Shown one piece after another: positions 4,786 to 28,295 of a DNA stretch of 64,000 nucleotides. The position numbers and the translations under genes are program-made. This DNA is from Williamsia soli (lineage in GTDB: Bacteria; Actinomycetota; Actinomycetes; Mycobacteriales; Mycobacteriaceae), in assembly GCF_017377795.1 (NCBI RefSeq), contig NZ_JAFRDR010000009.1, positions 186,001 to 250,000 on the forward strand. The letters run 5' to 3'. The notes beneath the pieces were generated by a model that searched no databases, was not told the origin of the DNA, and was given only the letters and a program-made list of their open reading frames with translations. Numbering within the stretch: the first letter of the stretch is position 1; every line of letters begins with the position of its first letter.

Positions 4786-5787
4786 TTATTTTGCATGCGC
4801 GGCGATGACTGCGCGCTTGGCTTCTTTGAACTCGTCATCGTCGATGAGTCCTTGAGCGTGAAGATCGGCCAGTTTCTGCAGTTCCGTCACCAGGCCACTA
4901 CCGGGTGGCGGCGCCGCTACGACACGCGGCGGGAGCGGCGGTTTCCACATGGATACAGGCGGCCCGTCCAGGTTGGACACCCGGCGCCTGAGCTCGTGAA
5001 GGTTTTGCAACGCCCCGTCGCGCAACTTCTTCGGCATTTCAAGTCGATTGGACAGATCAGCATCATCACGTCGACCCCAGGTGAGCACCGCGATGACGTC
5101 ATTCACGTCTCCCGGGATGTACTCGATCGTCTTGATGCTGACGAAGGAAAACACCGTAGTCGTCCGGACGCCACCCTGCGTCGACGCAATGTCCGTAGAC
5201 ACGAGCAGACGATCTTCGAACGCTGCCAGAAATCCTGAACCGCCACTATGAATGATCAACCAGGGTTCTTCTACAGGTCCCGAATGATCCACGATCAGCT
5301 TCTTGTCGCGATCGTCGATCGGTGCGCCGTGCAGACGCAGTGAAAGGTTGGTCGGTGCCGGCTCCCCGGTGTTGAGTACCGGTAGCGGGGCGCTGGCAGC
5401 AGGACTCGGCACCTCCGCTGTTGCCTCCAACAAGTACTCGATATAGTGCCTGACGAAACCCACCTCGTCATTACGTACACTCCCGAAGTCGACGTCGCCG
5501 TAGCGGGTTGTCACCACCAATTTGCGGGACCCAAGATTGATCGGGGTATCGAACTTGATGATCTCCCGGGCCGAAGCCGAGAACACAATATGTTTCGTCG
5601 CCAGGGCGATGCTCATAAACCCCAGCACGCGCTGATTGGTGATGGCGATGCCTTCGGTGGTCGGCTTGAACCGAGTAACCCGCGCGAACGCCCATATCTG
5701 CTCTCCCGGATACAGAAGTGGCGCGAGAGCGTTCGCCCATCGCGCTGCGGTTTTGACCTTGACTCTGGGTGGGCAGACATAGCTCAC
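4786..5787 (-). CDS. PH-like/SHOCT domain protein (copy 2, last gene of the operon)
   Basis: About 333 aa if started at GTG 5787, where the protein VSYVCPPRVK aligns with the start of its neighbour (MSFACAPNV). A longer frame back to TTG 5862 is possible but adds residues absent from the paralogue. Two PH-like beta domains are inferred (about 1-120 and 165-255). The C-terminus ELQKLADLHAQGLIDDDEF is a SHOCT motif, a short amphipathic helix pair often used for oligomerisation. A VSMWKPPL segment precedes SHOCT in both copies. The paralogue lies immediately upstream (5863-6912), so this is a tandem duplication. It may be a scaffold that brings the operon's products to the membrane, but that is inference. 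Confidence 0.7.
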   Translation of the reverse strand: MSYVCPPRVKVKTAARWANALAPLLYPGEQIWAFARVTRFKPTTEGIAITNQRVLGFMSIALATKHIVFSASAREIIKFDTPINLGSRKLVVTTRYGDVDFGSVRNDEVGFVRHYIEYLLEATAEVPSPAASAPLPVLNTGEPAPTNLSLRLHGAPIDDRDKKLIVDHSGPVEEPWLIIHSGGSGFLAAFEDRLLVSTDIASTQGGVRTTTVFSFVSIKTIEYIPGDVNDVIAVLTWGRRDDADLSNRLEMPKKLRDGALQNLHELRRRVSNLDGPPVSMWKPPLPPRVVAAPPPGSGLVTELQKLADLHAQGLIDDDEFKEAKRAVIAAHAK

Positions 5788-5862
5788 AGCGCTACCCGCT
5801 TCGCCGATAGACGTTCCTGTCCATTGAAAGGTCTGTCCAACTTTGTCAACATGGCACGCCAA

Positions 5863-6912
5863 TCAGTTTCGGGTGTGAGAGGCAATCACGGCCCTCTTCG
5901 CTTCGCCGAACTCTTCGTCGGTGATCAAACCCTGGGTGTAAAGATCAGCCAGGCTTCGAATCTCGGAGACCAAACCGTCGGCCGGTTTGGTCTTGGGTTC
6001 AACCACGCGCGGTTTCAGCGGAGGCTTCCACATCGACACCGGTGGACGATTCGCGTCAGAAGCCCTACGGCGCAAATCGTCCAGGTCTAACCGCACCTTG
6101 TCTTGGAGCTCCTTCGGCAACGGCAGGGTATTGGCCCGGTTCAACTCCGCTGCATCGCGATTGCGCCACGTATGCACTTCGAGTACGTCATTCACGATAC
6201 CGACGGAGAGGTCAATTCTGATTATCTCCGAATACAGAAATCGCGTGGTGAGGTGCCCTCGACCTCCGAGATTTGCTTGCGACTTGGAGATCAACAGTCG
6301 ATCGTCGAACGCCGCCAGGAAACCAACACCTGCATTGTTGACGATCATCCACGGGTTTTCGTCGGGACCGCAGAGGTCACGGATGACGCTCCAGGAACCG
6401 TCATCCATGGGACTTCCATAAACACGCGTGAGCGACCTGCGTCGCTTCTTCACCGGCCGACGGTCGGCTAGAACCGGCTGATTGGCGCTCACGGGCTGTG
6501 GCGCGCGGACTTCGTGTGAAATGCGTGGGAGTTCATCCAGACCGCCGGCCGAAGCCTCTACCAGATAGTCAATATAGGGCCGCAGAAACCTGGCTTCTTC
6601 CCGACTGACCGCCCCAAAATTGACTCTCCCCGCTGATGTCGTCACCAACAGCGTCTTGGGTCCGGGGGCAATATCGATGGCCTGGATGTCCCCCACAGCC
6701 GCCTCCAACACAATTCGCCTAGGTTCCATGGAGAAGCTCTCGAACCCGATCAGTCGAAAATCTGTGACAGCGAGCGCTTCTGTCTGCGGTTCAAATCGCG
6801 CGATCCTTACGAAGGCCAAGATTTCCTCGCCCGGGCGAAGGACCGGCGCCAACGCTGCTGCCCACCGCTCGGCGACCATCGAGGTCACGTTAGGAGCGCA
6901 CGCGAAGCTCAC
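5863..6912 (-). CDS. PH-like/SHOCT domain protein (copy 1)
   Basis: 349 aa, GTG start. The start overlaps the stop of the upstream GTPase gene by 4 nt (GTGA), a sign of translational coupling. The N-terminal domain contains LRPGEEILAFVRIARFEP and a beta-hairpin series ending KTLLVTTSAGRVNFG, typical of bacterial PH-like domains. A second, similar domain spans about 160-265 (GVGFLAAFDDRLLISKS). The C-terminal SHOCT motif reads EIRSLADLYTQGLITDEEF. The next gene is a diverged copy with the same domain order and a shared PPVSMWKPPL motif before SHOCT. No catalytic residues are seen. Its coupling to the GTPase suggests a partner or membrane-recruitment role. Confidence 0.75.
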   Translation of the reverse strand: MSFACAPNVTSMVAERWAAALAPVLRPGEEILAFVRIARFEPQTEALAVTDFRLIGFESFSMEPRRIVLEAAVGDIQAIDIAPGPKTLLVTTSAGRVNFGAVSREEARFLRPYIDYLVEASAGGLDELPRISHEVRAPQPVSANQPVLADRRPVKKRRRSLTRVYGSPMDDGSWSVIRDLCGPDENPWMIVNNAGVGFLAAFDDRLLISKSQANLGGRGHLTTRFLYSEIIRIDLSVGIVNDVLEVHTWRNRDAAELNRANTLPLPKELQDKVRLDLDDLRRRASDANRPPVSMWKPPLKPRVVEPKTKPADGLVSEIRSLADLYTQGLITDEEFGEAKRAVIASHTRN

Positions 6913-8066
6913 AGCACTCCCAGATCAGCCAACACCCACCGAACCGGATCCATGCATCGGAACGGTGTGATGCCGTTGGCGTGAAGCCTTGCTCCGACGG
7001 GTGATTCACCGAGTGCAGACACTGCGAAGAATCTGTTCGCGTAGCGCAGACCCGTTCTCGGATTCTCGAGATTCCTCAGCAATGGGCCGGCGTCGAGCTT
7101 CTGGAGAAGACTACTCACTTCTGCGTCCAACAACTGCCCGTCGGCCTCGTCGTACGGGGCTGCTCGCAGGCTCGGATCCCGCGAGAATGCCGCACCCGCA
7201 TTCGTCATGATGCTGCCCCAGTCGCTGCCCTTGACGTTCTGTAGCGCCTGCAGTGCGTCGAACTTCGACAGGATCACCGCAAGCTTGGGAGTTCCGTTGC
7301 CGAGCAGACCCATCACTGTCCGCAGGACCGTTCGCGGGTCGCCGCCCTGATTTGACTGCATAGGTACCAAATCTTGCAGCTGGTGTCGGATCTCATCGAC
7401 CTTGAGCGGGTCAAACATGAACAGGACTGCGTCGGCGGCGGAAAAGAACTGCCAAGAGAAACCTTCGACGTTGGCATTCTCGAGATCCTCGCCGGCCACG
7501 TCCCGAATGACCAGATAGTGCTTGACATCGTTCCAGGTGCCAAGCGTGAAAATCAGGGGCTCATGCTGGTGGCTGCCCTCTGTCGACGCCGAAGGCGTCG
7601 ACCCGAGTATGCCGCGTTCTTCGAATAGTGGCCGCTCGTAATAGTTCTCGTACACTTCAGCGGTCTGCTTGTTCGCGGGCTCGACGATTCTGTTCAACCG
7701 CTCGGCATGTTTCTGCAACTGCTTGATGAGGACCGCGATGTAGACGGTCTTTCCGGTCGCTCTCGCTCCGGCCATCACCACGCATGTCGTCGTGCCCCAG
7801 CGCCACATGTACGGCAATTCGTAGTGACAGATCGGGCATATCTCCGCAACCGGCCCGCCGAGTTGAGACTCCGGCCATTGGGCCTCCGGCACCCAGCTGA
7901 GCGGGGCATCTTGCGGACGCCGCAGCTCACAGGTCTTCCCCATGCGAACCTGCCGGCCGCTGAAAGCAGTTGCGCGTTCGTCATTCTCGAGCGTCGTCGG
8001 TTTCGCTTCCGTCCAGGCGAACCAGTCAGGCACCAGCGGATTGAAGCAACGGGGGCACTTACTCAC
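6909..8066 (-). CDS. Zinc-ribbon P-loop GTPase (DO-GTPase2/TRAFAC-like)
   Basis: 385 aa. An N-terminal zinc ribbon is formed by CPRC (residues 4-7) and CPIC (77-80). The NTPase core shows a P-loop GARATGKT (100-107), a switch/Walker B RDVAGED (D189, of the DxAG type used by TRAFAC GTPases) and an SKFD (267-270) in place of NKxD for guanine recognition. This order matches the 'double GTPase' proteins predicted to work with GAP1 proteins in bacterial conflict systems; that link is recalled from the literature on NTP-dependent conflict systems, not searched. Stop and start overlap both neighbours by 4 nt (VWA gene before, PH/SHOCT gene after). The enzyme probably acts as the switch of the whole operon. 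Confidence 0.8.
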   Translation of the reverse strand: MSKCPRCFNPLVPDWFAWTEAKPTTLENDERATAFSGRQVRMGKTCELRRPQDAPLSWVPEAQWPESQLGGPVAEICPICHYELPYMWRWGTTTCVVMAGARATGKTVYIAVLIKQLQKHAERLNRIVEPANKQTAEVYENYYERPLFEERGILGSTPSASTEGSHQHEPLIFTLGTWNDVKHYLVIRDVAGEDLENANVEGFSWQFFSAADAVLFMFDPLKVDEIRHQLQDLVPMQSNQGGDPRTVLRTVMGLLGNGTPKLAVILSKFDALQALQNVKGSDWGSIMTNAGAAFSRDPSLRAAPYDEADGQLLDAEVSSLLQKLDAGPLLRNLENPRTGLRYANRFFAVSALGESPVGARLHANGITPFRCMDPVRWVLADLGVL

Positions 8067-9058
8067 AGCGTTTTCCTCACTTGGAGCACCGCCAACAGAC
8101 GTCCGACAACGTCGTCGACCAGCCCCGGCTCAGACAGCAGGCGGTCGACAGCGCTCTCGCCCTGGCGTGGTGGCGGCGAGACGGCACCGACGAAGTTGGG
8201 GTCGGCGAGGGCCGCTCGGGACGGTGAGAGGACCAACTGAGTACTCAGACCCCTCGATGCGACCTGCGCAGGAGCGTCAGTGACCGCGATCGTCAGCTGA
8301 GCCCCGTTCTGCGCAACAACAGGTTCGGTCAGGGTGGCGCCGACGCCGAGCCCGGTAGCAGCCACCGCCGCTTGGAACGCGGAGGTCGAGTCATCGTTGT
8401 CCACGCTCACCTCGGTGAGCGTCTGCCCCGCGAGAACTGCGCGCACAGGCGCTCCCGCCGACAACACTGCCGCGACCCCCTTGGCGAGGTCGACCGCAGC
8501 GCTCACGCTCCCGTCCGAGATCAGCGAGCCCATAGAGAGGCTCGAGTCAACGAGTACGACGACCTCCAACTGGCGGTCTGACGGCAGTTGGTCCACCCCG
8601 AGTGCACTGCGCGCCGCCGCTCTGGCGCGCCTCGCGAGAGGACTCAGTGGCAACTCAGGACGGATCAGTCGCGTCGTCACCGAAATCTGCTCGGCACCCG
8701 CAGGACTGATGGTTGCCAATTCGATAGCGCTCAGTCCGGAGACGTCCCGTGGAGTCAGCTGTGCTCGGTCGGGGTCAATCTCGCGCGAGCTGTCCAGACC
8801 GACGGTGACGTGCAGAACAGTCCCCTGCGCGAAGGTTGATTGCGACCCCGCCGGCACCGCCGAGATCACGACATCATGGTCCACCCGCGGAACGATCAGC
8901 ATGCCCGGGCTGTGCACGACCACCGACGGGTCGATCGAACCATCACGCCTGGCGACCAGCTCAGCACCGCCAGTGACACCCGCCACCGACATAGTTACAG
9001 CCAGAGGCCGTCGCGGTAGCTGAGCTGAGCTCGTTCCATCAAGTACAAAAGTCACCAT
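8063..9058 (-). CDS. Cytoplasmic VWA-domain protein
   Basis: 331 aa from ATG 9058, which overlaps the stop of the GAP1-like gene (ATGA). A longer frame to 9139 would run 81 nt into that gene and is not preferred. The N-terminal 150 residues form a beta-rich domain of unknown type. The VWA core begins at LEVVVLVDSSLSMGS, with an intact MIDAS D171-x-S173-x-S175. The later metal-ligand Thr and Asp are less obvious (VGVGATLTEPV and IAVTDAPAQ are candidates). No signal peptide. VWA proteins bind partner proteins through a metal; next to the GTPase gene, the obvious idea is a GTPase- or GAP1-binding adaptor. A second VWA protein in the same operon is exported, so the two sense different compartments. 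Confidence 0.75.
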   Translation of the reverse strand: MVTFVLDGTSSAQLPRRPLAVTMSVAGVTGGAELVARRDGSIDPSVVVHSPGMLIVPRVDHDVVISAVPAGSQSTFAQGTVLHVTVGLDSSREIDPDRAQLTPRDVSGLSAIELATISPAGAEQISVTTRLIRPELPLSPLARRARAAARSALGVDQLPSDRQLEVVVLVDSSLSMGSLISDGSVSAAVDLAKGVAAVLSAGAPVRAVLAGQTLTEVSVDNDDSTSAFQAAVAATGLGVGATLTEPVVAQNGAQLTIAVTDAPAQVASRGLSTQLVLSPSRAALADPNFVGAVSPPPRQGESAVDRLLSEPGLVDDVVGRLLAVLQVRKTL

Positions 9059-11799
9059 CAGGTGTTGTCCTCTCGGTGGGTCAAAGAGAATCGAGAACGT
9101 TGGGTGTCGCGGGTCAGCAACCCACGCTCGCGGAGCCAATCTTTTCCGGCGGAACGGTATTCGAGAAAGAAGCGCTCAGCGGCCGGTGCCGTCAGGTCTT
9201 TGACAGAGATCCAGAGGGCGTCCCGCAAAGCCTCGACGCTGGTCGGTCCGCGATAGTCGCTGTTCTCCAGTCGACCGGCGATCACGCTATCCATCCACGA
9301 ACCACCGGCACTCTCATCTGGCCGTGCAAACAACGCTGTCGGGGCAAGGTCAGACCCCATACGCGAGCGCATCGACTCGCCGGCTACCCAGGCGATATCG
9401 ATGACCTCGCGAGCGATCAGGCGTTCCAGCCATTGCACCAGCTGTGGCTGGAGCGGTTGTAGACGCAGCGCCAGCTGCTGCTTCGCGACTGTCTCCCCGC
9501 TTGCCCAGGGGCGCGATCGGGACTGCGCGGCGACAAACAGGGCACCGAGCGGAACACACAAATCTTCGTCGAGGTGGCCATACACTTCGGGTTCGAGTTC
9601 TTCAACCAGGCGTTTCACCTCGGAATCCATGAGTGTTAGTGCCCAATGTTTTTCGAAGTCCGTCCACGTCGATGCAGCTCGAACACGTGCGCCGGCGACA
9701 ACCAACGCCGACAGCTCATCCATCGGCACGGGTTCGCGCAGCGGATAGTGACAGACGTAATCCAAAACCCGGTTGAGCGCCGCCGATGGTGGCGAGTAGA
9801 AGACATGCTGGAAGGCAGTTGACGGTGTGATCCGGAGGCGCGATTGAGCGATGAGGCGGTCCAACTGCTCAACGTTCATGGTGTAGTGCCGCGTCAGTCG
9901 TTCGACCTCGACGACGGGTTCTTCGTCGGACGACGCTTGGAGGGCGTGAACCGCGGTCACACCGAGATGAGCCAGGTCGGACCTGCGCGCTCGGGGTATG
10001 TCGGTGACCTCGGGGCTCTCCAGCAGTGCCGTGATGTACAGCGGGAGAAGGCCTCGATTCGGAACCCCGAAAGCCGGCGCTTCCGCTGCTCCTTGGACAT
10101 CAAGATTGCCTTGATCGCCAAAAATCCACAGCCAGACAGCAAGATCCAGGCCTTCCGGTGCGCGGATCTCGGAGGCGAGAACCGGCAGCAGGACAGCGGC
10201 CAGTGTCTCCTTCGATATGTTCTGAACAGTAGAGATGAACGCGTGGACACGCGGCCGGTCGCGTAGGAAGTCGATCTTCGCCATTTCGATTATGTCCGCC
10301 AGACGCAACAACACCTCGTCCAGTTCGGGTCCCCGACGCGCCAGTCGCATAAGAAGCTCACCTGCACGCAGCACGGTGAGAACAAGATGCTCCGAATCGG
10401 AATGCGGTGGCGCCGACGCCGTACGCTGTATCTCCTGCATCCAGGACTCGAGCGCACCCGTGAGACGATCGATCTCAACGTTGTGCCAATGCGGCACCAG
10501 GTCCAACTGGATGTCAGGTGACGCGATCCAGGCACCGTCGCGGAGGGCACAGATCACCAGTCGCTCTGCGGCACGTGACTGACTGCCTCCCGAGTACCGG
10601 ATCCTGGACAGCCGACGCAACGCGTCATCGGGAGTCTGGGGGGCATTGGCGACGTAGAGATCGTCGACGAGCTCGAGAAGGCGTTCGGAGCTCCCCAGGT
10701 GCGCGGGATGATCGTCCGTGGCTGCTTGCGCCGACTCGAGTTCGATATCCCCGAGCTGCAGTGTGCGGGCCGCGATGGCCAGCGGCCACACCGGCGACAA
10801 CTCCCGGTCACCGACCTCGCGAGCGATGTCGTCCTGCAGCTCGATCACCCGACTCGCGATGCGCGCATCGACGAGGGCGGCCTGCGCCAGCAACGACCAC
10901 GGCGACACCGCCACCGGGAACATCGACTTGGCCAATGCATGACCCGCACCGCCGAGCGCACCGAGCTGAGGATCTTCCTCTGCGTCGATCACAATCCAGT
11001 CCGCAGCGGGCAGTTCGGCATACTCGCGCGGGACGCAGATCAGGTGCACTCGCCTCTTGGCATCAGCCAACGCCAGATCGGGTTTGTCGTAGGTGCTCCA
11101 GGAGAATCGTCGAGCCGTTCCCGGGGACATGAAGTAGCTGACCGCACCGATCCATCGTGCTGCGTCAGCGGGGTCGGTCAGGAGGACAACTGAACGGCCG
11201 CCCGTCATCGCGTCATAGACAGCGTCCAGCAACACCTGGTACAGACCGAGGCGGTACACGTCCGGATCCAACAGAAAGTGCAGGGTGCTGTCGACAGTGA
11301 TCACATCACCCGGCCGAAGCAGATGATCACCGGGCAACTCCGCGGCACGAACTTTTTGAGGTCCATACGGGCGCAACCAGTCCGGCGAATCCCACAGTTC
11401 AATCGGTCGCAATGCCGGCTGTGAAGAGAACGCATCGTCGAATACGACGTGCGCGAACACATTTCCGGGTCTACCCGATCCGTCCGTGCCTGCGTCCACG
11501 GTGTGCCAATAGGCACCCACGCCCGGACATATCGAGTCGTAAGCAAGCCGCGCGGGACGGCCCTCTATGTCTGCGGGTGTCGGGTACTGCGGTAGGAGCG
11601 GATCAACGTCGAACTTGGTCACAATCCGCGAGGTCAGGGCATCCACCTCCGACCTGGTCAGATCGCCGACCTGATCCTTGACCTGCCAGCCACCACCGGA
11701 TCCGGAACCGTCGTCGAACGAGGTGTAGATCAGCTGCCCGTATCGCCCGACCGCGGGTGCGCCGGCCGGTTCTCTCTCTCCGAACACACCGGCCGTCAC
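9058..11799 (-). CDS. GAP1-like GTPase-associated protein
   Basis: 913 aa, GTG start overlapping the upstream stop (GTGA). The N-terminal 150 residues (GQLIYTSFDDGSGSGGGWQV, later GNVFAHVVFDD and RPIELWDSPDW) match the N-terminal domain type 2 of GTPase-associated protein 1 (GAP1) as I know it. The rest is long and helical, as in the middle and C-terminal GAP1 domains, with no motif for catalysis. GAP1 proteins are always encoded next to TRAFAC-type GTPases and are thought to be regulators or effectors in bacterial conflict systems. Here the GTPase gene is two genes downstream. The protein is probably cytoplasmic; no signal or TM segment is seen. Confidence 0.75.
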   Translation of the reverse strand: MTAGVFGEREPAGAPAVGRYGQLIYTSFDDGSGSGGGWQVKDQVGDLTRSEVDALTSRIVTKFDVDPLLPQYPTPADIEGRPARLAYDSICPGVGAYWHTVDAGTDGSGRPGNVFAHVVFDDAFSSQPALRPIELWDSPDWLRPYGPQKVRAAELPGDHLLRPGDVITVDSTLHFLLDPDVYRLGLYQVLLDAVYDAMTGGRSVVLLTDPADAARWIGAVSYFMSPGTARRFSWSTYDKPDLALADAKRRVHLICVPREYAELPAADWIVIDAEEDPQLGALGGAGHALAKSMFPVAVSPWSLLAQAALVDARIASRVIELQDDIAREVGDRELSPVWPLAIAARTLQLGDIELESAQAATDDHPAHLGSSERLLELVDDLYVANAPQTPDDALRRLSRIRYSGGSQSRAAERLVICALRDGAWIASPDIQLDLVPHWHNVEIDRLTGALESWMQEIQRTASAPPHSDSEHLVLTVLRAGELLMRLARRGPELDEVLLRLADIIEMAKIDFLRDRPRVHAFISTVQNISKETLAAVLLPVLASEIRAPEGLDLAVWLWIFGDQGNLDVQGAAEAPAFGVPNRGLLPLYITALLESPEVTDIPRARRSDLAHLGVTAVHALQASSDEEPVVEVERLTRHYTMNVEQLDRLIAQSRLRITPSTAFQHVFYSPPSAALNRVLDYVCHYPLREPVPMDELSALVVAGARVRAASTWTDFEKHWALTLMDSEVKRLVEELEPEVYGHLDEDLCVPLGALFVAAQSRSRPWASGETVAKQQLALRLQPLQPQLVQWLERLIAREVIDIAWVAGESMRSRMGSDLAPTALFARPDESAGGSWMDSVIAGRLENSDYRGPTSVEALRDALWISVKDLTAPAAERFFLEYRSAGKDWLRERGLLTRDTQRSRFSLTHREDNT

Positions 11800-14237: not shown

Positions 14238-16921
14238 CAGAATCCGAGCCCATCACCCATTGTCGGCGGAGCAAACCGCTGATTCTCGGTCCGCGGTTCG
14301 ACCTGCGCCCTGTGTTCCGAAGGCATCTCGGGTACTTGCTCATTCCACCCGAAGTCCGCACGAGGGTGAGCATCCAGCGTAAGGTTGTCGATCGACAGCG
14401 CACCCGACAGCTGCGTTGCGGCACAGACGATTCCAATGCCATTGCGGGCTGACGTCCTGATGTCTTCCTTGACCTCGGCGGCGCCAGAAGTCGTCGCCAG
14501 ATCGGTCAGTATCTTTCGGTCGAAGTTTCCGGTCGGCGGGGTCTGCCGGTCTATCTGACACAGGAAATCGGCGATGTTGACCGAGCGACCCGAACCCACA
14601 GCTGGGATATCGACGGTTCCGACCAGTCGTTGCACCAACTCTGCTTTAGGTCCCATGAGATTGTTGCGTGCCCGATTCCAGACGAGGTCGGCACCGGTAG
14701 AAGTGATGGTCCCGTTGAACAGAGCGGACGACCAGCGATCCAAGGGTGACCCCGACCCCTGGCCTGGCGCCGTCCACAAACGACTGACCTCCGCATCGAC
14801 ATCTCTTTCGGCGCGTCCCGCGGCAGGTGCCGCGTTGTCGACGAGCCCTTCCCACGATTCGGTCAACCACCCGAGCCCGAAGAGATCTTGGCGCACGTAC
14901 TCGGCAGTGGTGGAAACCTGCTCTGCCACTGGACGGGCAGAGCCCACCGCCACCGACATCGGTAGACCCCATGCGACCCGTGGGTCGGCCTTGCTGTTTG
15001 CCAGATCGGGACCCAGCGGCTGCGCTAGGAAGGTTCCCAACGCCCTGCTCCATGACAGGTACTGGCTGTAGGCCTGAGACAGCCGTTCCAGATCACGGAG
15101 CCCGGTGCGGAGGTTCTGCCGATCGACCTCTTGCTGCGAGACGACAGACTTGCGTCTGTTCAGTTGCTGGAAGAGGTCTCGTTGACTCCGGATAAATGAA
15201 ATCGCGCCGACGACTACCGCCACGACGAGGATGACAACGAAGATCGCTGCGGCCAGCCACCAGTCAACGGACCCGCGTATGACCAGCCAGACGAGCAACG
15301 CTGCCACCAGAACGAACAGCAGCGCAGCAAATTGAATGACTCGTGCGAGTTTTCCATGCTTGTTGGTGGGTTGAGGTGGCGGTGCCTGCGCGTCTCGGAG
15401 CCGTTGCAAGAGGTTTTGCACTTCGCCGAACGTGGAGACGAAACTGTCCGCGAGCCGTCGGCCGACCTGAACGCCGAAGCTACCGGAGGTTTCCCGGTGC
15501 CAGTTGTCCAGGTCGGAGGCGGCGCGCCGTGCCTCCAGACCAAGGTTCGCTTTCTGCTCCTCCTCAGACAACTTCTGGCGTAGCTGCAGGATGCCCAGTG
15601 CATCCGTCGCGTCGACACCGTCGACACCGATGGTTGCCCCCACGATTCCGGAGAGCCTAGTGAAGCGCTGCGCTGGGCCAGGAACCACGTCAGCCGATCG
15701 GCTGATGATGCCCCGGTTCGCACCGACCTGCACGGGCGCGAGATCTGCTGAACGAGCTCCGCCATCGGCGAGTGTCAGAGCAGCACGCGCGTAGTCCTGC
15801 CACAGGTTCGACAGATCTGCGGAGGCGTTGTGGGTTCGCCCCTCAGATGGATCGGCCAGCACGCTGCTCAATTGTCCGGAGGCTGAGCCGATCTCGCTCC
15901 AATCGGCGATACCGCCTTCCGGTGTCCGTCCGCGGGCCACCACGTCGTACGCCGATGGTGCAGCGCCGAAGATGGTCCTGTGCACGGTCGAAGCAATGCC
16001 GGTGGAGATCCCGTCGACGAGCTGGTTGTACCAAGCCGACGGGGCATTGCGCAGCGCTGCACCCATGAAGGAGAAGAACATCTTGATGGCGGCCCACACG
16101 CCGATCTCGGACGAGGCCTCCGCCTCGTAGGGCATCCGCGGACCATGGAGCACCGACGAGAACTTGTGCCACAGGCTATCCGACATCGTCCGCGCGGCCA
16201 GCGCCACATCTTGGATATAGACGACTGTCGAACGTTGGTCGCTCGGCAAGGGCAACGAGCCGTTCTGAGCCAGCACCTGTGCACGCAACGAATCCTCGGC
16301 AGCGGAGGTGTCGAGCTTGCGGTAGAACGAGCGTGCGAGTCTGATCACTTGGCCCGGAAGCACCGGAGAGTTGTCGAGCGGCCGGTGGTCGAGCCCTGTC
16401 CACAGCCCAAGAAGAGAGGCCACCGCCGGCGCACAGTGCCGCCCGATTTCCACGGGATCAGTGGACGGGTCGAGCTGGATGTGGCCCATGCCCGGGCCCT
16501 GCGCGTCTTCAGGCGCGATGAGGATGTTATGCCAGCCATCCAGTACCTCCGGCGACTGAGCAGCTATCGTTCCGGGCCGCGCGATCAGGCAACGAACCCG
16601 AACGATTCGAGCACCCCCGGACGTCGACGCGAGGAGATCGGAGATGCGTCGTTCTTGACCAGATGACGCGGCTACCGGACCACCGACGAGCGGCACCAGG
16701 ACACAGATCCGCAGCAGATCGATGCGCTGAGTCGAGAGCACCTGCTGCACGGTGGTGTCGTAGGCGCGCCCCTCGTGGATCGTCAGGGCGGCATCGGTTG
16801 TCGCCGATTCCGCCACCCAGACAAAGGGATCGACCAACGCTGCCGCCGACAAATCCGACAGCGCGCTGAGCACTCCGTCCGCAGTGCCATGCGGCGCGAT
16901 GAAAACGGTTACTGCAGCCAT
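14237..16921 (-). CDS. Conserved-operon protein with central two-TM hairpin (function unknown)
   Basis: 894 aa from ATG 16921. A strong AAGGGAGGGA ribosome-binding site lies just upstream, and the preceding stop is 1 nt away (TGAGATG); a longer frame to 17032 would run into the tubulin-like gene and is rejected. The N-terminal 130 residues look like a Rossmann-type alpha/beta domain (VTVFIAPHGTADGVLSALSD, then RICVLVPLVGGP). After a long helical region come TM1 (about 529-549) and TM2 (about 554-576), joined by a short loop, and then a 300-residue helical tail. Both large ends lie on the same side of the membrane, presumably the cytoplasm. It is the main membrane anchor among the cytoplasmic members of the operon. 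I do not recognise its family. Confidence 0.65.
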   Translation of the reverse strand: MAAVTVFIAPHGTADGVLSALSDLSAAALVDPFVWVAESATTDAALTIHEGRAYDTTVQQVLSTQRIDLLRICVLVPLVGGPVAASSGQERRISDLLASTSGGARIVRVRCLIARPGTIAAQSPEVLDGWHNILIAPEDAQGPGMGHIQLDPSTDPVEIGRHCAPAVASLLGLWTGLDHRPLDNSPVLPGQVIRLARSFYRKLDTSAAEDSLRAQVLAQNGSLPLPSDQRSTVVYIQDVALAARTMSDSLWHKFSSVLHGPRMPYEAEASSEIGVWAAIKMFFSFMGAALRNAPSAWYNQLVDGISTGIASTVHRTIFGAAPSAYDVVARGRTPEGGIADWSEIGSASGQLSSVLADPSEGRTHNASADLSNLWQDYARAALTLADGGARSADLAPVQVGANRGIISRSADVVPGPAQRFTRLSGIVGATIGVDGVDATDALGILQLRQKLSEEEQKANLGLEARRAASDLDNWHRETSGSFGVQVGRRLADSFVSTFGEVQNLLQRLRDAQAPPPQPTNKHGKLARVIQFAALLFVLVAALLVWLVIRGSVDWWLAAAIFVVILVVAVVVGAISFIRSQRDLFQQLNRRKSVVSQQEVDRQNLRTGLRDLERLSQAYSQYLSWSRALGTFLAQPLGPDLANSKADPRVAWGLPMSVAVGSARPVAEQVSTTAEYVRQDLFGLGWLTESWEGLVDNAAPAAGRAERDVDAEVSRLWTAPGQGSGSPLDRWSSALFNGTITSTGADLVWNRARNNLMGPKAELVQRLVGTVDIPAVGSGRSVNIADFLCQIDRQTPPTGNFDRKILTDLATTSGAAEVKEDIRTSARNGIGIVCAATQLSGALSIDNLTLDAHPRADFGWNEQVPEMPSEHRAQVEPRTENQRFAPPTMGDGLGF

Positions 16922-16922
16922 C

Positions 16923-19900
16923 TCAGATCGTCCCTCCCTTGGGAACCTCAAACGACTTCGCCGCGCCCGAAGGAGCGATGGGTTGTCCCGGTGCCACGGA
17001 CTCCGGTCGCTTGGCCTGGTCGGCGCACCCATCGATCATGTCGATGATCCGGGTCGTGGCCCAGTACACGTCCGACGCCAGGTCGCGGAAGATCGGCGTA
17101 CTCGATGCTTGTTCGCGGACAGTGATCACCGAGAACACACCACCGCCGTCAGCGGGCGGCAGTCCGACCTCGGGCCGGGCCCCCGGCGGCAAGTAGTGCG
17201 TCCCGGCGAAGTCGCGGCTGTTCTGGAGATACGCCCGCAGCTTCTCCGCGCGTTCGTCGATCGACACGCCGGGTCCCGAGTCCTCGACTGCTGACGCCAA
17301 ACCTGTCCCGGTGTCGCCGCTTCGGAGCCATCGCGTCAGGTGCGTCCGGGCGGTCAGCCCGTGCACGCCCGACACCTCATCCTCGGGTGACGCATCGTAG
17401 ATGCGACGGAGGGCGCGGTACGGCAGCATGGACGACATCACCGGCGGCTCGTGAGACTGCGCCATCGCGAGCAGTATCGACTCGAGAACCGCAGGCATCC
17501 AGTCGTACGCGGCGGTGAACTGCGAGGGCGGGGTCAGCAATGGGTTGGGGAAATCACGCCACGTGCTGGTCTCGCCGTCCCAGACGCGTGCTGCCTCGAC
17601 GTACGGTTCCGGCGGCACGGAGATCTGTCCGATCGCCCGGCCGAGGGTCCAGCCTGCGACCATCGCGCGACGCTCATTCGGGTGCATCGGCAGCGACGCG
17701 GCCAACGGTCGCGACCGTCGCATGCGCCAGAAAGCCTGGCGCTGAGAGGGAGACGCACCGAGCCACTGTCGCGCTGCCGGCTCGAGAACCGAGTTGAACG
17801 CCAGTGGCGAGTAGTTCGGGTACGACCCGAAGATGTCGACGCGCTTGATCTTCGACTCGTCCGTGAGTGCGCGAGCCAGAACATCTTTGGTCTTGTTGTC
17901 GATGCGCGAGTACTCGTTCAAGGCCGATGCCAACTCGTCCGCCACCCGCAAGCCCTTGAAAGGAACGGCAGAGAACTTGAAGCGGTAGCTCATCTGCTGG
18001 GTGTTATGGATCGCCTGCATGGCCTGCTCGTTGACGCTGGCCAGCGGACGAGCGAGGTTGATCGCCTCACCGAACTTGGCGACGATGTCGTGGTGGCGGC
18101 GAGCCAGCTCGGACTCAGGCTCACCGACGCCGGTCAGATACTCCCGCAGCGAGACCCGGCAGAAGCGATCGAACGACTCCCCCGTCCGCGCCACGAACTT
18201 TCGCGAACGTTCGAGCAATTCAGCGGGCCGCACATGTACGTCGAATCGCGCAGGCGCGGAGATTCTTGACTCACCGCTCGCGGGGTCGGTCACAAAAGCC
18301 CGCGACTTCCATTCGGCGGTCCGCTCCACCACCGGCTGATCTTCTGCCGGCGCGTGGCTTCCGTCGTTGGTCACCCAGTAACCGGTGATTGCGTGGGTGG
18401 TCGCCCGGGCCACCGCTTCACCAAACTGCCGAACTCCAGCGTTGGAGGCACCGACCGCCAATGGCAGGTCGACCTCGTAGCGCTGTTTGAAGTCGGCGGA
18501 ACTGGTCAGCATCACTTCGTTGTTGGCTTCGGAGAATCGATCTGAGACCCAGGCGTCGGAGTCGGACGGCCATGCCGCGTACTCGTCGGTCTGCAGACGT
18601 GCCAAACCGACATCGCGGATGGGCTCACCCGCTGCGGTGCGTAGCAGGGTGTGCGACTCGTTGAGCGCGTCGATCAGCGGGTCGAAGACCTCGCTCACCA
18701 TGGCTCCTGCCGCGGTGCTCACTATGTTCGACAGCGATGCGTAGATCTGGCGTTCGATGGTTCGCTGACTGCCCTCGAGTACGCGGGCGAGGATCTCCGA
18801 GGTGCTCGTCAGGTTTCCGCGCAAACCGTTGAGGGTGCTGGTCACCTCATCGGGCAGGTCGGTCACATCGGACGGACCATACTTCGCGAGATCCTGGGCG
18901 CTCGGAAGCACCACGTTCTGCATGTACTGCGAGACCCGCTTCACCAGTGCCGTGGCATACGGAAGGCCGAGCTGCGCAATGGCTCTCGTGGTCACGCCCT
19001 CGAGTCGCTGCGCGAAGGTGACGTGCCAGCGGTAACTCCAGGAGTAAGCCTGCTCGTGGCTTCCGTCCAGCAACGCCTGCCGACGGTCCGAGAGTGCGTG
19101 GTGCACACTCGAGACCCAATGTCCGGCGTTCGCCCCGTCACGCTCGTCGATGTATCCGCGCAGGTTGGTGTTGACAACCTGCGCCGACATCCCCATCACG
19201 TCCTGACGAGGCAGGACGGTCTGGGTCACCCACTGCCCGACAACAGCTTCACCGGCAGTGACCGGCAGCTGGAGTTCAGCGCAGATGTTCGGCCACTGAC
19301 TGTCCAGGATGGAGGCTGCCTGCTCGTCGTCGGACGCAGGGTTGCCTGGCTGGAGGTGTCCGCGCAAAAGGCGTTCAGCACTGCTGCGGGCCAGGCGTTG
19401 CGCCGAGTACTCCGCGTAACGGTCCCGGCCCATGCTGAGGCTGGCGAACCCGAACGAGCCCCACGGCAGGTTGTCCCACTGGCCGTTGCCCCAGCCGATG
19501 AACTCACGAGTGCCGGCGGTGCCGCCGCCGTTCGACAGGTCCCATTCGACGAACTGTTGGGTCGCCGACTTACTCATCATGAGCGCCGACAGTCCGCGGC
19601 CGAGACCGCGGTATACGGCTTCGGGCGATCCGTCGCCGAACAGCGTGCGCTCAGCGCCGACGTAGCGACCGACCGGGAACACTCGGGCGAACGGAATCAG
19701 TTCGCCTTCACCGTTTTGCTGGCCGAGGGCGCGAAGGATGGAGACGTCGTGTTCGCGGGCGGCTCCGGTCTGGCTGGCAACGATCTCGCCGAGCATCGCC
19801 AAGGCGTTGGCGCGCACACCGGTGATCGCTGAGGAGTCGAGGCTGTCGAAGATGTCCGGAGCAACCATGAAGACACCCATGAGCCGCGGGTCGACACCCG

Positions 19901-20498
19901 GGATCAGCGTCAGGATGCGGCAGATGTCGAGAGCCATCGAGGCACCGGCGCCGCCGGCCATCGAAGACACCACCAGCACCACGGGGCTCTCGCCGGCGTC
20001 ATATTTGCCCGATCCCGGGATGTCCAGTCGGCGCATCTCGCTTTCGGTCTCGACCCGGAAGAGGCGATCCCAGCTGTGCTGCAGCTCTTCCCGCACCTTG
20101 GCGACCCGGCTCAGCGTGATCATGCGACCCAACGCGCGGTACTGACCGGCGCCGGTGCTCAGCGGGGTGTGCACCGAGCTCGGCTCGCGCGGAGCCCAGG
20201 TGGCGAGACTGTCCAGCGAGCCGCCGGAAGCCAAGCGCTGAGAGATGGCGTTGTCCAACACCTTGTAGCTGTCGCTCTGGGGCCCGGTGCCGACGTAGGC
20301 ACCACCCTGATCGCGTACGTTTCCGAGCCCATCAGGTCCGGGGGACGGCGCGGTCGGCACATCGAGGTGCACGAACTGCCAACCGGCCGGGATCTGTGTG
20401 ACGCCGTGAGCAGCCAGGTCCGAACGCAGCTGGTCCATCATGTACGCCAGCGTTGCGCCTCCTGAGCCACCGCAGCCGACAACCAGAAATCTCCTCAT
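16923..20498 (-). CDS. Tubulin-like GTPase (Tubulin_2 family-like)
   Basis: 1191 aa, ATG start. The N-terminus RRFLVVGCGGSGGATLAYM has the beta1-loop glycines of the tubulin/FtsZ fold. SSMAGGAGASMALDI (about 178-192) is a variant of the tubulin signature GGGTGSG that contacts GTP phosphates. The following VDPRLMGVFMVAPDIFDS fits the next strand-loop. The C-terminal 750 residues are helical and unlike FtsZ, which agrees with the very long bacterial tubulin-like proteins annotated in Actinobacteria. It probably forms GTP-dependent filaments or assemblies. It lies between the exported VWA protein and the two-TM protein, so polymer assembly at the membrane is a reasonable guess. Whether it polymerises cannot be told from the sequence. 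Confidence 0.8.
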   Translation of the reverse strand: MRRFLVVGCGGSGGATLAYMMDQLRSDLAAHGVTQIPAGWQFVHLDVPTAPSPGPDGLGNVRDQGGAYVGTGPQSDSYKVLDNAISQRLASGGSLDSLATWAPREPSSVHTPLSTGAGQYRALGRMITLSRVAKVREELQHSWDRLFRVETESEMRRLDIPGSGKYDAGESPVVLVVSSMAGGAGASMALDICRILTLIPGVDPRLMGVFMVAPDIFDSLDSSAITGVRANALAMLGEIVASQTGAAREHDVSILRALGQQNGEGELIPFARVFPVGRYVGAERTLFGDGSPEAVYRGLGRGLSALMMSKSATQQFVEWDLSNGGGTAGTREFIGWGNGQWDNLPWGSFGFASLSMGRDRYAEYSAQRLARSSAERLLRGHLQPGNPASDDEQAASILDSQWPNICAELQLPVTAGEAVVGQWVTQTVLPRQDVMGMSAQVVNTNLRGYIDERDGANAGHWVSSVHHALSDRRQALLDGSHEQAYSWSYRWHVTFAQRLEGVTTRAIAQLGLPYATALVKRVSQYMQNVVLPSAQDLAKYGPSDVTDLPDEVTSTLNGLRGNLTSTSEILARVLEGSQRTIERQIYASLSNIVSTAAGAMVSEVFDPLIDALNESHTLLRTAAGEPIRDVGLARLQTDEYAAWPSDSDAWVSDRFSEANNEVMLTSSADFKQRYEVDLPLAVGASNAGVRQFGEAVARATTHAITGYWVTNDGSHAPAEDQPVVERTAEWKSRAFVTDPASGESRISAPARFDVHVRPAELLERSRKFVARTGESFDRFCRVSLREYLTGVGEPESELARRHHDIVAKFGEAINLARPLASVNEQAMQAIHNTQQMSYRFKFSAVPFKGLRVADELASALNEYSRIDNKTKDVLARALTDESKIKRVDIFGSYPNYSPLAFNSVLEPAARQWLGASPSQRQAFWRMRRSRPLAASLPMHPNERRAMVAGWTLGRAIGQISVPPEPYVEAARVWDGETSTWRDFPNPLLTPPSQFTAAYDWMPAVLESILLAMAQSHEPPVMSSMLPYRALRRIYDASPEDEVSGVHGLTARTHLTRWLRSGDTGTGLASAVEDSGPGVSIDERAEKLRAYLQNSRDFAGTHYLPPGARPEVGLPPADGGGVFSVITVREQASSTPIFRDLASDVYWATTRIIDMIDGCADQAKRPESVAPGQPIAPSGAAKSFEVPKGGTI

Positions 20499-20532
20499 AC
20501 TCTTCTAGCCCTTCATAGCGTTGTTGTCGGCT

Positions 20533-23316
20533 TCAGCGACTGAATGGATCGAATGGTTCGTCCGGAGGCCTGGGGGTGTTCCCCGGTGGCGGTCCGGACC
20601 TTGGTGGTGGCGTCTGCGGCGGTCCCGATCGCGGCTGCCCACCGAACGGATCGCCTGCTTGCGGCCGGTTCGATGATCCGAACGGGTCACCGGACTGCTG
20701 CGGACCGGGAGCGGGCCCCGAGCCACCGAACGGATTGAAAGACTGTGGCTGGGCCGGTGGCTGACCACTCGAACCGGCCGGCGCCTCCACACTGGCCCGC
20801 GACCGCAGCTCCTCGAGGGTGCGAGGCAGGTGCCGCATCATGTCCTCGACAAGAGAGTTCACCTGTTGCGGACCGGCATCGCCGCCGGCGAGCAGGACAA
20901 CCGTCGCTCTGTCTGCCGGCCCCGCGGGGTCGTGCAGGACGAACCAGCTGTTGTGGATGGCAAGAGGCAGCCGAGCGTCCGGGGTCTTGCCATGCATCGC
21001 GGGAGACTTGCTGCCCGCACCCGAACGTCCCGCAGCCTTGGCGACCACGAATCCGGCGCCGAGCGGCGACAAGCCGGTACGGGTGCGCAGTTCGATGCCG
21101 CCCAGGTCCAGGCGCCGCGCAGGTTTGTCCAGGCCTCGGACCAGCTCTACCAGGTCACGGTCTCTGATCGCGAACGGTTGACCGTCCCGCAAGACGGACC
21201 CACCGTTGACAGTCACCGGGATCTGCTGTGCACGAAGCGCTCTGGCCGGTATCCGTGCGGTGAACCACTTCGCCAGATAGAGCAGCAGGAGCGGTACGCC
21301 AGGTCCCAGGATGAGCGCCACGATGAGAGCGATCAGGAAGTTGCTGGTGTTCAGCGGCTTCTGCAGGTCAGCGGTGAACGGAACCTGCACCGCTACGGCC
21401 CGATCGGCCTCGTCCGGCGGGGACACCATCACCTGGACGGTTCCGTTGACGACACCGTTGGCCTCATTGGGTACGTCGAGGGTCAGCGGCAGCTTGGCCT
21501 CTTGCCCTTCCTTCAGCTGCACGCAGTTTTCCGCAGAGGTTGCCGACGAGGTGACAGACAGTCCGTCAACGCCATCAGGAGCGGCTACGACTTGAGCGCC
21601 CGGCTCTTGCGGAAGCCAGACGCAGCCGGGGCCGGTCACCGTCAGAGATGTGTCGAAGCTGCCGGAACCCTCGACGGTTCCGAAATCGATCTTCGAACCG
21701 AGGGACGGGAAGCCCACCGGCGGATCGATGGTCACGGGGATGTCCACCGACCGGGGAGTCAGGGCCGTTCCCGGCACGCGTCTTCCGTTGGTCGCGGTGG
21801 CGTCGGCGGTGGTGATGGCCAGCGACAGCCGCATGATTGCGCCGCCCGGCGGCACTCCCTCGAGATCCATGGTCACTGGATCGCCGATCGAGTCCTTGGG
21901 GACGTCGGACACGATCGGGTAGCTCTTGCCGTCCTTGTCGACAAGCGTCGCCGAGTAGGTGGCCTTACCGAGCAGATCCTCGGGGTCGACCGGGGCGTTC
22001 TGACCATCGACAATGCTGAACGTCACCGGCACATCGATATCGTCGCTGTGGAGCCGAGTGTTGGGATCGCGATCCCAAGCGGGGAACAGGTTGCCCGAGA
22101 TGTGAATGTTCGACTTGCTGCGAGCCCCGGATGCACCGTTCGGGTCAACGAACGCCAGTGCCCACACGCCTTGCCATTGCGGTGCCTGCACGTTGCTCAT
22201 CTCAAACGACACCGTCTTCGGCGACGGCCAGCTGTAGTCGATGGTGACCCCGCCCAGGTCGCCGGTTCCGCCGCTGCGGTTGTCCAGAGGCAGAAGACTG
22301 CCGTTCGGCGAGACGAGGGTGGGTACGAGATCGGTGCCGTCGGCAGTGGCCAGAACGTTGACGTTCCCGACTGAGCGGTCGAGGACGAACCGGTGTTTAC
22401 CCTCTTCGCACACCACTCGCGCACAAACGATTGCTTCTGATTCCAGCGGCGCCTGGCCGGGTGTGCTGAATGCATCAAACGCGAACAGCAGGTCGTCGAT
22501 GTCTTGAGCCAGGTAGAAGTCACCTGGAATGGGTGCGGTCAGATCGCCGCACGCGTTGGGCGACGGGACGCCGGTGGCAATGGACCTCATCAAGTCGAAG
22601 TCCGCTGCCGATGACCCTTCGGGGGCAAGGCCGATACCGAAGGTCACGATTCCCGACGACCGGAGCTGGTCAGCCAGCCCACCGGATCGGCAGATGCTCT
22701 CCGTCGCGGCCGCAACGCCCTGGTCAACGCCTGCTTGATTGCTGAAGTCGACCCCAGGCGCGTAGGGCTTGTCCACCCCACCGCGCGGGCTGAAGTCCAG
22801 CTTGCCGTCGGAGAACCAGGCGACTGCGCGGCACTCTTGGCCACCGGTCTCGCCGGACGGCTCTGAGAACTGCGACCGTGCGCCGTCCAACGCGAGCCAG
22901 TAGTCGGTGTCCAAACCACCGTTGCGGGTGCGGAAGCCGTCGAGGCTCGTCTCCACGTTCGGCAGCGACGACTCATCGAGAGTCGTCCAGCCGAGCACGT
23001 TGCGATACTGGTCAGAGAACCCGGATACCGCGACCTCGACCTGAACACCTGAATCCTCTGCGAATCGCGCCAGCTGCTCGGTCAGATACTTGGCTGCCGT
23101 CACGCGGGCGGCGTCGGGATCTGAGGTCTGCAGGCTCGCCGACTCGTCGATCATCAGCAGGATCTGACCCGATCGCTGGGCAGCCAGACAGGCGCCAAAC
23201 CGGTTGGCACCGTCACCGTCGTCTGCGCCGGCAGGAGGGGCCAGAGCCACCGTCAGTGCAGCGATGCAGAAGAACAGACCCAGTACACCCCCAAGCCGAC
23301 CCACGATCCCGCTCAC
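20533..23316 (-). CDS. Exported VWA-domain protein with one TM segment and Pro-rich DPFG tail
   Basis: 927 aa, GTG start overlapping the upstream stop (GTGA). Residues 1-32 are a signal peptide (cleavage near PPAGADD). An extracellular VWA domain follows, with an intact MIDAS at DESAS (D57, S59, S61). A series of beta domains runs to about 650; a TM segment at 660-684 (FLIALIVALILGPGVPLLLL) leaves a cytoplasmic part of about 240 residues. The last 70 residues are Pro/Gly-rich with repeated DPFG motifs and end PFDPFSR. The first gene of the operon begins PFDPFGSG, so the motif is shared. The protein likely senses something outside through its metal-binding VWA domain and signals inward. A 34-bp gap separates it from the tubulin-like gene. 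Confidence 0.8.
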   Translation of the reverse strand: MSGIVGRLGGVLGLFFCIAALTVALAPPAGADDGDGANRFGACLAAQRSGQILLMIDESASLQTSDPDAARVTAAKYLTEQLARFAEDSGVQVEVAVSGFSDQYRNVLGWTTLDESSLPNVETSLDGFRTRNGGLDTDYWLALDGARSQFSEPSGETGGQECRAVAWFSDGKLDFSPRGGVDKPYAPGVDFSNQAGVDQGVAAATESICRSGGLADQLRSSGIVTFGIGLAPEGSSAADFDLMRSIATGVPSPNACGDLTAPIPGDFYLAQDIDDLLFAFDAFSTPGQAPLESEAIVCARVVCEEGKHRFVLDRSVGNVNVLATADGTDLVPTLVSPNGSLLPLDNRSGGTGDLGGVTIDYSWPSPKTVSFEMSNVQAPQWQGVWALAFVDPNGASGARSKSNIHISGNLFPAWDRDPNTRLHSDDIDVPVTFSIVDGQNAPVDPEDLLGKATYSATLVDKDGKSYPIVSDVPKDSIGDPVTMDLEGVPPGGAIMRLSLAITTADATATNGRRVPGTALTPRSVDIPVTIDPPVGFPSLGSKIDFGTVEGSGSFDTSLTVTGPGCVWLPQEPGAQVVAAPDGVDGLSVTSSATSAENCVQLKEGQEAKLPLTLDVPNEANGVVNGTVQVMVSPPDEADRAVAVQVPFTADLQKPLNTSNFLIALIVALILGPGVPLLLLYLAKWFTARIPARALRAQQIPVTVNGGSVLRDGQPFAIRDRDLVELVRGLDKPARRLDLGGIELRTRTGLSPLGAGFVVAKAAGRSGAGSKSPAMHGKTPDARLPLAIHNSWFVLHDPAGPADRATVVLLAGGDAGPQQVNSLVEDMMRHLPRTLEELRSRASVEAPAGSSGQPPAQPQSFNPFGGSGPAPGPQQSGDPFGSSNRPQAGDPFGGQPRSGPPQTPPPRSGPPPGNTPRPPDEPFDPFSR

Positions 23317-23735
23317 AGACGTCCCACCCAGAATGCGAAGCCCAAGGCGCCGACGACGATTCCGATGATCGAAATCGCGATGACCACCCCGTACGTCAAC
23401 TTAGTCCAGCCAGGGCTGGTGTAGATCGGAGCAGAGCGACGCTTGGTGTCGGCGAGTGTGAACGCGGCCAGGATGCCGATGGCAATCGGCCCAGACAGCG
23501 TCCAACCCACAATCGACAGCCAACCGGATCGCCCGATGATGCCCACGACTAGGCCCACCAGCGCTACCGCGCCCGCAGCAAAGAGCAGACCGGCGGGCGG
23601 CCCGGCGACCTCTAATGTTCCGGGACGCGACGACCCTTGACCGAACGGTGTTTGCGGTGCGTGACGAGAGGCTCCGGGGCCGGAACTCGGACCAGGCGTA
23701 CCGCCTGATCCGAAAGGGTCGAATGGTGCGGCCAC
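23313..23735 (-). CDS. Small membrane protein, first gene of the operon
   Basis: 140 aa from GTG 23735, chosen because GAAAGAGG lies 4-5 nt upstream; the frame extends to 23795 but has no better site there. The N-terminus is Pro/Gly/Ser-rich and opens with AAPFDPFGSGG, the same motif as in the tail of the exported VWA protein. Three hydrophobic segments follow (GPPAGLLFAAGAVALVGLVV, SIVGWTLSGPIAIGILAAF, LTYGVVIAISIIGIVVGALG). The stop overlaps the VWA gene start by 4 nt. Being first and small, it could be an anchor or signal relay. I do not recognise its family. Confidence 0.65.
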   Translation of the reverse strand: MAAPFDPFGSGGTPGPSSGPGASRHAPQTPFGQGSSRPGTLEVAGPPAGLLFAAGAVALVGLVVGIIGRSGWLSIVGWTLSGPIAIGILAAFTLADTKRRSAPIYTSPGWTKLTYGVVIAISIIGIVVGALGFAFWVGRL

Positions 23736-23998
23736 AATGCCTCTTTCACGTGCTGGTATGAACGTCAACTCCTGTGAATGCAGGATATTAACCACTGGAA
23801 ACCACTTGATTATGTCTCAAATTCTTCGCTCAAGAGTCCTGTCCGAAAGAGCCAAAATCGGAGACAACCTTCCTATGTTTTCAGGTGAGGTGCCCCTGTG
23901 TCCGTAGTTCGAACGAACGACACTGACTCCGCAAGCCTCGCAACGCATTCAAACATTTCGGTCCGACACGCGCCTGCCTGCTCTTCGTCCCCGCTCCG

Positions 23999-24577: not shown

Positions 24578-24691
24578 GTTCTTCCTCCGCTCGTACAGGT
24601 GAATGCTCGACGACGGACGTGGAGTGGCACCGACGTTCCAATCGCTTGCGCATGACATTAGCGGGCTTATGTGACAGCCACCCGGAATTTC

Positions 24692-25937: not shown

Positions 25938-26019
25938 GCCGGCCTGTGTCGGCGGGAATACCTAGAGGTCGCCAACCATAGGAACAGTCGCAGCTCACGT
26001 CGTGACGCGTCGTCGATCG

Positions 26020-28293: not shown

Positions 28294-28295
28294 CC

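Follow-up and report, generated by a model that had tools for sequence, protein, structure and literature searches.

In a window of 64,000 nucleotides from Williamsia soli (contig NZ_JAFRDR010000009.1, positions 186,001 to 250,000 of the forward strand), calling and translation of open reading frames (ORFs) show ten minus-strand genes at 4786-23795, named here g1 to g10 from the upstream end, which encode a tubulin-like protein, a GTPase, a GAP1 protein, two VWA or VWA-like proteins and further membrane and accessory proteins (Table 1). Neighbouring genes overlap by 4 nt at g1/g2, g5/g6, g7/g8 and g8/g9, and by 1 nt at g4/g5 and, after trimming of the g7 start, at g6/g7. Genes g9 and g10 abut, and the widest gap in the cluster once the g4 and g7 starts are trimmed is the 34 nt between g2 and g3. 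The trimming concerns g4, whose longest ORF (14237-17032) has its likely start at 16921, 1 nt from g3, and g7, whose longest ORF (8063-9139) has its likely start at 9058. The ten touching minus-strand genes described in an earlier note on this DNA are therefore present, nearly all junctions being overlaps or contacts, and they run down to 4786 as claimed; the upper end lies at 23795, 60 bases beyond the 23735 given there.

Table 1. Features of the operon and its surroundings, in window coordinates (TM, transmembrane)
Feature	Position	Strand	Evidence
g1, small multi-TM protein, Pro/Gly-rich N-terminal tail	23313..23795	-	ORF; TM segments read from sequence
g2, exported VWA protein	20533..23316	-	Pfam VWA_2 5.7e-6, above cut-off
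g3, tubulin/FtsZ-like protein, long C-terminal part	16923..20498	-	Pfam Tubulin_2 7.5e-47, above cut-off
g4, membrane protein, N-terminal alpha/beta domain, long helices with TM hairpin	14237..16921	-	
g5, FN3-like scaffold, no TM seen	11796..14237	-	profile match to tenascin-R FN3, E 0.006
g6, GAP1: GAP1-N2, GAP1-M, helical C-terminus	9058..11799	-	Pfam 3.6e-20 and 1.7e-10, above cut-off
g7, second VWA-like protein (TerF-like, weak)	8063..9058	-	Pfam vWA-TerF-like 0.021, below cut-off
g8, DO-GTPase2 with N-terminal CxxC (zinc-ribbon-like) motifs	6909..8066	-	Pfam DO-GTPase2 2e-7, above cut-off
g9, PH-like/SHOCT protein, variable tail slot	5863..6912	-	SHOCT 1.7e-5, bPH_3 0.026, both below cut-off
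g10, SHOCT protein, g9 paralogue, variable tail slot	4786..5862	-	Pfam SHOCT 6.9e-7, above cut-off
TerD gene directly upstream of operon	23999..24658	-	Pfam TerD 7.2e-80
TerD-domain protein, C-terminal extension, convergent with operon end	3411..4742	+	Pfam TerD 5.7e-26
McrB-like/McrC-like pair (MrcB_N; DUF2357 with PDDEXK_7), outside the machine	26263..30461	+	Pfam
SLFN-g3 helicase	30729-32579		
HNH-like ORF	33022-33825		read from sequence only
DUF2326/ABC-3C-like protein	34038-35774		

The domain calls that the note had made from the raw letters proved right or plausible, the FN3 and PH calls being the weakest. Profile search confirmed both the GTPase and the GAP1 protein (DO-GTPase2, GAP1-N2, GAP1-M), and the exported VWA protein with a TM segment is supported by the Pfam match in g2 together with a topology read from the sequence. 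No acceptable Pfam family was found for g1, g4 and g5, no operon protein matched HRDC or FN3 in Pfam, and NCBIfam gave no name to any of the nine operon proteins scanned (g2-g10). Profile searches against solved structures with g3, g4, g6, g7 and g8 returned nothing meaningful. Promoter and terminator scans gave a result no better than shuffled sequence, Rfam returned no match at its gathering score and the tRNA scan found none.

The arrangement of g1 to g8 is conserved far outside Williamsia. A tubulin alignment scan found 123 relatives, and in the best 80 of these 123 loci homologues of g1 to g8 occur in 72, 74, 80, 79, 77, 73, 72 and 70 loci respectively, g3 being the bait. All lie on the tubulin strand and in one order, with ORFs ordered by their starts (in L056 the longest g8 ORF begins ahead of g7). 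This order extends over Williamsia, Rhodococcus, Gordonia, Nocardia, Mycobacterium and kin, Corynebacterium, Propionibacteriaceae, Micrococcales and others, and a g1 homologue is the first operon gene in 72 of the 80 loci. Missing genes fall at contig ends or where the 10-kb flank stops; the one exception, L100, has neither g1 nor g2 inside its contig. An order of g1 to g8 that is kept from genus to genus and from family to family is not due to chance. Hence g1 to g8 are one system, as the note had proposed: the homologues are regular neighbours in other genomes and the GTPase and GAP1 motifs hold in profile searches. With W. muralis or W. faeni as the comparison, the dN/dS ratio (nonsynonymous to synonymous substitution rates) of g1 to g8 in the window is 0.02-0.17, and the tubulin g3 is 99% identical to its W. 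muralis counterpart.

The two tail genes stand outside this constant set. A homologue of g9/g10 was found in 4 of the 80 loci, upstream of g1 in Rhodococcus, with the flanks of these loci stopping near g8 so that the tail slot is mostly out of view. Measured against W. muralis or W. faeni, g9 and g10 are the most diverged of the ten genes, and the slot holds two PH/SHOCT-like genes in the window (4786-6912), one longer gene in W. muralis and one gene in W. faeni (L031:13126-14565; L029:13136-14155). In 19 genomes read downstream of g8, the genes that follow include TerD-like ones, others for small proline-rich membrane proteins, and unrelated ones. Mycobacterium loci (L065, L069, L081, L067 and others) display a cluster of similar proteins, which lie ahead of g1 and behind g8 and occur in up to 23 loci. 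The four members of this cluster that were checked are DUF4190 proteins, and the cluster may be what mycobacteria have in place of the PH/SHOCT slot.

The spread of the system is patchy. Tubulin_2 was found in 17 of 396 genomes across the phylum, a full-length tubulin in 3 of 9 Williamsia genomes and GAP1-N2 in 53 of 393 genomes of the class, Corynebacterium glutamicum, which is harmless and used in laboratories, carrying both Tubulin_2 and GAP1-N2. Tubulin_2 also occurs without the full operon, as four fetched neighbourhoods (G287, G378, G399, G445) match g3 alone or nothing. Among 50,697 phage records no tubulin match was seen, and two Rhodococcus plasmid records, megaplasmids of 1.1-1.4 Mb, carry the tubulin at 71% identity with GAP1 about 5 kb away (NZ_CP113952.1:426436-436120, NZ_CP110470.1:568723-578401).

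Another arrangement, two divergent tubulin-like genes close together, was observed in three operon-less Williamsia genomes and in G183 (L034:5796-9474 in G007; L035/L006/L008 in G005; L037/L007/L010 in G002; L026/L027 in G183). In G007 each of the pair measures about 540-570 residues, with an ORF of about 105 residues between them and nitrilase and CbtA genes nearby.

The note had taken the cluster for an undescribed machine, which does not hold: its named core figures among the GAP1-N2 GTPase systems of Kaur et al. 2020 (PMC7159879), and the FtsZ-like-1, VWA and GTPase set in Makarova and Koonin 2010 (PMC2875224). The locus belongs to the actinobacterial tubulin-type GAP1-N2/DO-GTPase kind already in print, which the literature found treats as a prediction only. 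In the passages of Kaur et al. on the actinobacterial form, a single tubulin with a helical C-terminus is accompanied by an FN3-HRDC protein and a membrane-bound VWA protein. The locus shares with that theme the DO-GTPase with zinc-ribbon-like motifs, GAP1-N2 with GAP1-M (both matched by 35 of 35 aligned g6 homologues), the single tubulin with a long C-terminal part, a possibly FN3-like protein, a VWA protein that reads as membrane-bound, TM parts and a conserved neighbourhood, each gene other than the bait being found beside the tubulin in 70-79 of 80 loci here. Kaur et al. describe FN3 proteins of which one is fused to HRDC and one is membrane-bound and has VWA; here the VWA lies in g2 with a TM segment read from the sequence and the FN3 match of g5 is weak. 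The locus differs in that those passages name no counterpart of g1, g4, g7, the PH/SHOCT tail genes or the Ter neighbours; in the text that was searched 'SHOCT' does not occur and 'TerD' occurs once, for another system, and 'DENN' and 'longin' have no occurrence in the main text. With the operons for which Makarova and Koonin proposed membrane remodelling, the locus shares a tubulin-FtsZ-like N-terminus followed by a long C-terminal part, VWA, a divergent GTPase and membrane proteins. On the other hand, the FtsZ-like-1 T4 signature GGGTG(S/T)G differs from the AGG[AS]GAS seen here, the account of those operons, as far as its relevant part goes, does not name GAP1, and no operon protein here has an OmpA match in Pfam.

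Beyond the known kind, what is new is a testable mechanism for GAP1, a link to Ter genes and the location in a hot spot. The AlphaFold model of g6 (predicted local distance difference test score 86.4) was compared with known structures, and ranks 1-4 all went to DENN proteins, which lead the remaining entries by about 2 Z units; three of the four matches extend over 242-267 residues. Arg110 (R110) is invariant, in 34/34 and 30/30 or all 64 sequences, and is the sole such residue in the D..GRPGN loop, which is gapped in L207 and L211, where both placements depend on the aligner. It sits between strands 94-104 and 113-121 of the model. In Avl9-type DENN proteins that act as GTPase-activating proteins (GAPs), the proposed catalytic finger is an Arg of a conserved loop that connects longin strands 4 and 5, according to the part of the source that treats it (PMC12803157); if the longin assignment of the model is right, R110 would lie in that very place. 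A DENN-like fold of g6 and a role of R110 as finger are predicted, and GAP1 appears to be a bacterial counterpart of a module that controls GTPases in animals and yeast. The predicted fold resembles that of the longin-DENN regulators (DENND1, DENND10, FLCN-FNIP, C9orf72-SMCR8, Avl9), from which GAP1 differs in being bacterial, in showing no detected sequence similarity and in having an additional C-terminal helical region. The literature found, limited to open-licence papers so that an absence proves little, holds no paper linking Ter genes or DENN to GAP1.

We consider it possible, with somewhat less than even confidence, that GAP1 is a prokaryotic longin-DENN GAP that uses R110 as its finger and regulates a bacterial double-GTPase, by way of which it would also govern how a divergent tubulin assembles at the membrane, with g4 as a dead Ras-like partner in a GTPase/pseudo-GTPase pair like the paired Rag GTPases. 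A tentative alternative of the same standing is that GAP1 is a scaffold or an exchange factor and not a GAP, or that the DENN likeness arises by chance from an alpha/beta domain followed by helical repeats. Several observations weigh against a GAP of DENN type: the DENN sequence profile PF02141, searched in 24 genomes at E up to 10, gave one match that is not GAP1, 0 of 35 GAP1 proteins match it, so that the likeness has no counterpart at sequence level, models without a true match typically reach a best Z of 7-8 in this comparison, and the DENN module is described in the consulted part of PMC3521125 as a Rab exchange factor. A chance likeness or a mere scaffold fits poorly, however, with four DENN proteins at the top of the comparison, well separated and mostly aligned at length, and with one Arg kept throughout the loop. 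If GAP1 is indeed a longin-DENN GAP, the DENN module, so far described as eukaryotic, would have bacterial relatives inside a defence system, which bears on the origin of eukaryotic membrane-traffic regulators. The fold-level link and the single invariant Arg turn an undefined 'GTPase-associated protein' into a hypothesis of one residue and one assay.

The other proteins carry motifs of varying constancy. In g2 a signal-like N-terminus precedes the VWA domain (52-171), a later TM segment and a Pro-rich tail, and DxSxS is present in 69 of 74 homologues compared with 44 of 72 for g7. In g3, the sole Tubulin_2 match in its own genome, this domain spans residues 5-373 of 1191, and the T4 loop reads AGGAGAS in 74 of 80 homologues and AGGSGAS in 5, none being found in one. 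The FN3 link of g5 comes from a profile of 27 homologues that matches one FN3 protein. For g8, the 70 homologues, some of which end prematurely at the locus edge, show the P-loop pattern in 63, DVAGED in 66, SKFD in 46 and at least two CxxC within the first 150 residues in 52.

Homologues of g4 (window 14240-16921) share the strongly conserved motif GWHN....PE....P..G, which reads GWHN..APED..GPG in g4. Its N-terminal domain is possibly a Ras-like fold devoid of a P-loop: one structural comparison gave such a likeness, barely over the level that the tool calls common, and GxxxxGK[ST] was not seen in this domain in a 33-sequence alignment. Comparison of g4 with g8 as a candidate paralogue was negative, with a profile-profile probability of 0.40% for the N-terminal domain and 0.13% for the whole protein, so the Ras-like reading comes from the single structural comparison. 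A pore-forming role was considered for g4 and dropped, as the best Foldseek match, the alpha-pore-forming toxin MakA, was not significant (E 0.044).

In the window, TerD genes, which the note does not mention, lie on both sides of the operon. The search profiles were built here from a TerD seed of the window and from TerC and TerF seeds, labelled as such by their sequences and not by a family model. With these profiles, Ter genes were found in 13 of the 80 loci, all upstream of g1, and in 6 of 19 downstream stretches; the 20 control stretches, each of 12 kb, had none (17 of them came from the 19 genomes and 3 from other relatives). Joining both sides, a Ter gene lies within about 10 kb of the operon in 9 of 19 genomes, the two sides together being more sequence per genome than one control stretch. 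By the Pfam model, TerD is present in 12 of the 19 operon genomes and adjoins the operon in 9 of these 12, where 0.25 would be expected under uniform placement (P about 1e-13, disregarding the clustering of TerD copies and the kinship of the loci). Within Williamsia, a third full-length TerD (over 260 bits) stands at the operon in the three carriers (G000, G003, G006), and in the six remaining genomes there are one or two copies, at other sites. The TerD-domain protein convergent with the operon end has a counterpart, 89% identical, at the W. muralis operon end.

Ter linkage joins two poorly understood bacterial networks. TerD, and genes that we read as TerC or TerF, lie beside the operon in members of the Mycobacteriales and Micrococcales, but the core g1 to g8 encodes no TerD by Pfam. 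One explanation would make the operon a branch of the Ter (tellurite/TerD) stress response, in which the GTPase-tubulin machine would be the output of TerD and TerC proteins that sense metal or Ca2+ at the membrane. The excess of Ter genes over controls, the third full-length TerD at the operon in Williamsia and the weak TerF-like match of g7 speak for it; nevertheless 7 of the 19 operon genomes have no TerD match, and Ter thus cannot be needed everywhere. Given also the TerC and TerF labels read from sequence and the simplifications behind the P value, we regard this explanation as unlikely.

The operon occupies a defence hot spot in Williamsia. Upstream of it in the window lie GmrSD_C-Excalibur, McrB/McrC-like genes, a Schlafen-group-3 helicase and a DUF2326 protein. 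This defence-like run extends over 24789-35774, and the guanine-plus-cytosine content drops to 0.53-0.54 over 32-36 kb. On the same side W. muralis carries a ZacC gene (1123.6 bits) with helicase and nuclease genes. G007 has no operon; there the corresponding flanking sequences enclose MzaB, two MzaC and MzaD together with a C5 methylase and Vsr. With PADLOC (2023 library, E <= 0.001) no match was obtained for g1, g2, g3, g5, g6, g7 and g8; of the McrB/McrC-like pair, the first gene matched PDC-M26A (2.3e-43) and the second none.

Outside Williamsia the defence enrichment of the flanks is weak. At E <= 1e-15, PADLOC matched 38 families in 150 flanking ORFs (151 picked from the 19 genomes, one over 1200 residues dropped) compared with 2 families and three matches in 132 control ORFs (153 picked, the others removed by length limits, which left 18 of the 20 stretches). 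The 25 flank families shown match one ORF each, many sharing the same ORF, which amounts to a handful of ORFs. Of ten flank ORFs chosen by eye and checked singly, five gave a match; all five belong to the R. gordoniae and R. tukisamuensis loci, where genes downstream nearby match Orf5/HEC-06 and MzaC/MzaD.

Our best reading, on which we stand evenly divided, is a membrane-tethered, GAP-controlled GTPase-tubulin machine of stress or defence. In it, g2 as the exported VWA protein, together with g1 and g4 as TM proteins, would link the envelope to a cytoplasmic complex whose switch is the DO-GTPase g8. GAP1, if a real longin-DENN-type GAP, would bind g8 and supply Arg110, and its helical C-terminal part may hold other subunits such as the g5 scaffold and the VWA protein g7. 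The GTP or GDP state of g8 would then allow or stop assembly of the tubulin g3 at the membrane, leading perhaps to containment, sealing of the membrane or signalling once a phage attacks or the envelope is damaged, and the outer slots (TerD, PH/SHOCT, DUF4190) would plug in lineage-specific partners. Computation shows the gene content and order, the motifs, the Ter linkage and, for one genus, the hot-spot location; we infer complex formation, tubulin polymerisation, the direction of signalling and an anti-phage role. A conflict role is suggested because the operon lies in the Williamsia defence hot spot, and an envelope-stress role because of the TerD linkage, the membrane parts and the fact that a DO-GTPase gene joins some psp operons, as reported in the portion of PMC11237479 concerned.

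A housekeeping-type machine of membrane remodelling or envelope integrity, in line with the proposal of Makarova and Koonin, would have the tubulin and VWA proteins shape or repair the membrane with no specific anti-invader role, the hot spot being incidental. That reading of related operons, the constant core under purifying selection among three Williamsia and the ordinary character of some neighbours (the 10 flank proteins scanned include ribosomal L25, a penicillin-binding protein and an MFS transporter) would suit it. However, the patchy tubulin, within the phylum as within Williamsia, is unlike housekeeping genes, and the operon is placed in a defence hot spot in Williamsia, with further copies on two megaplasmids of Rhodococcus; such a machine seems to us improbable, and a GAP-controlled machine of stress or defence is retained as the best reading.

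Elsewhere in the window, at 45137-49176, a small WXG100-sized ORF and a larger partner with no Pfam match are followed by a TY-Chap3 protein, a possible secretion-related cluster.
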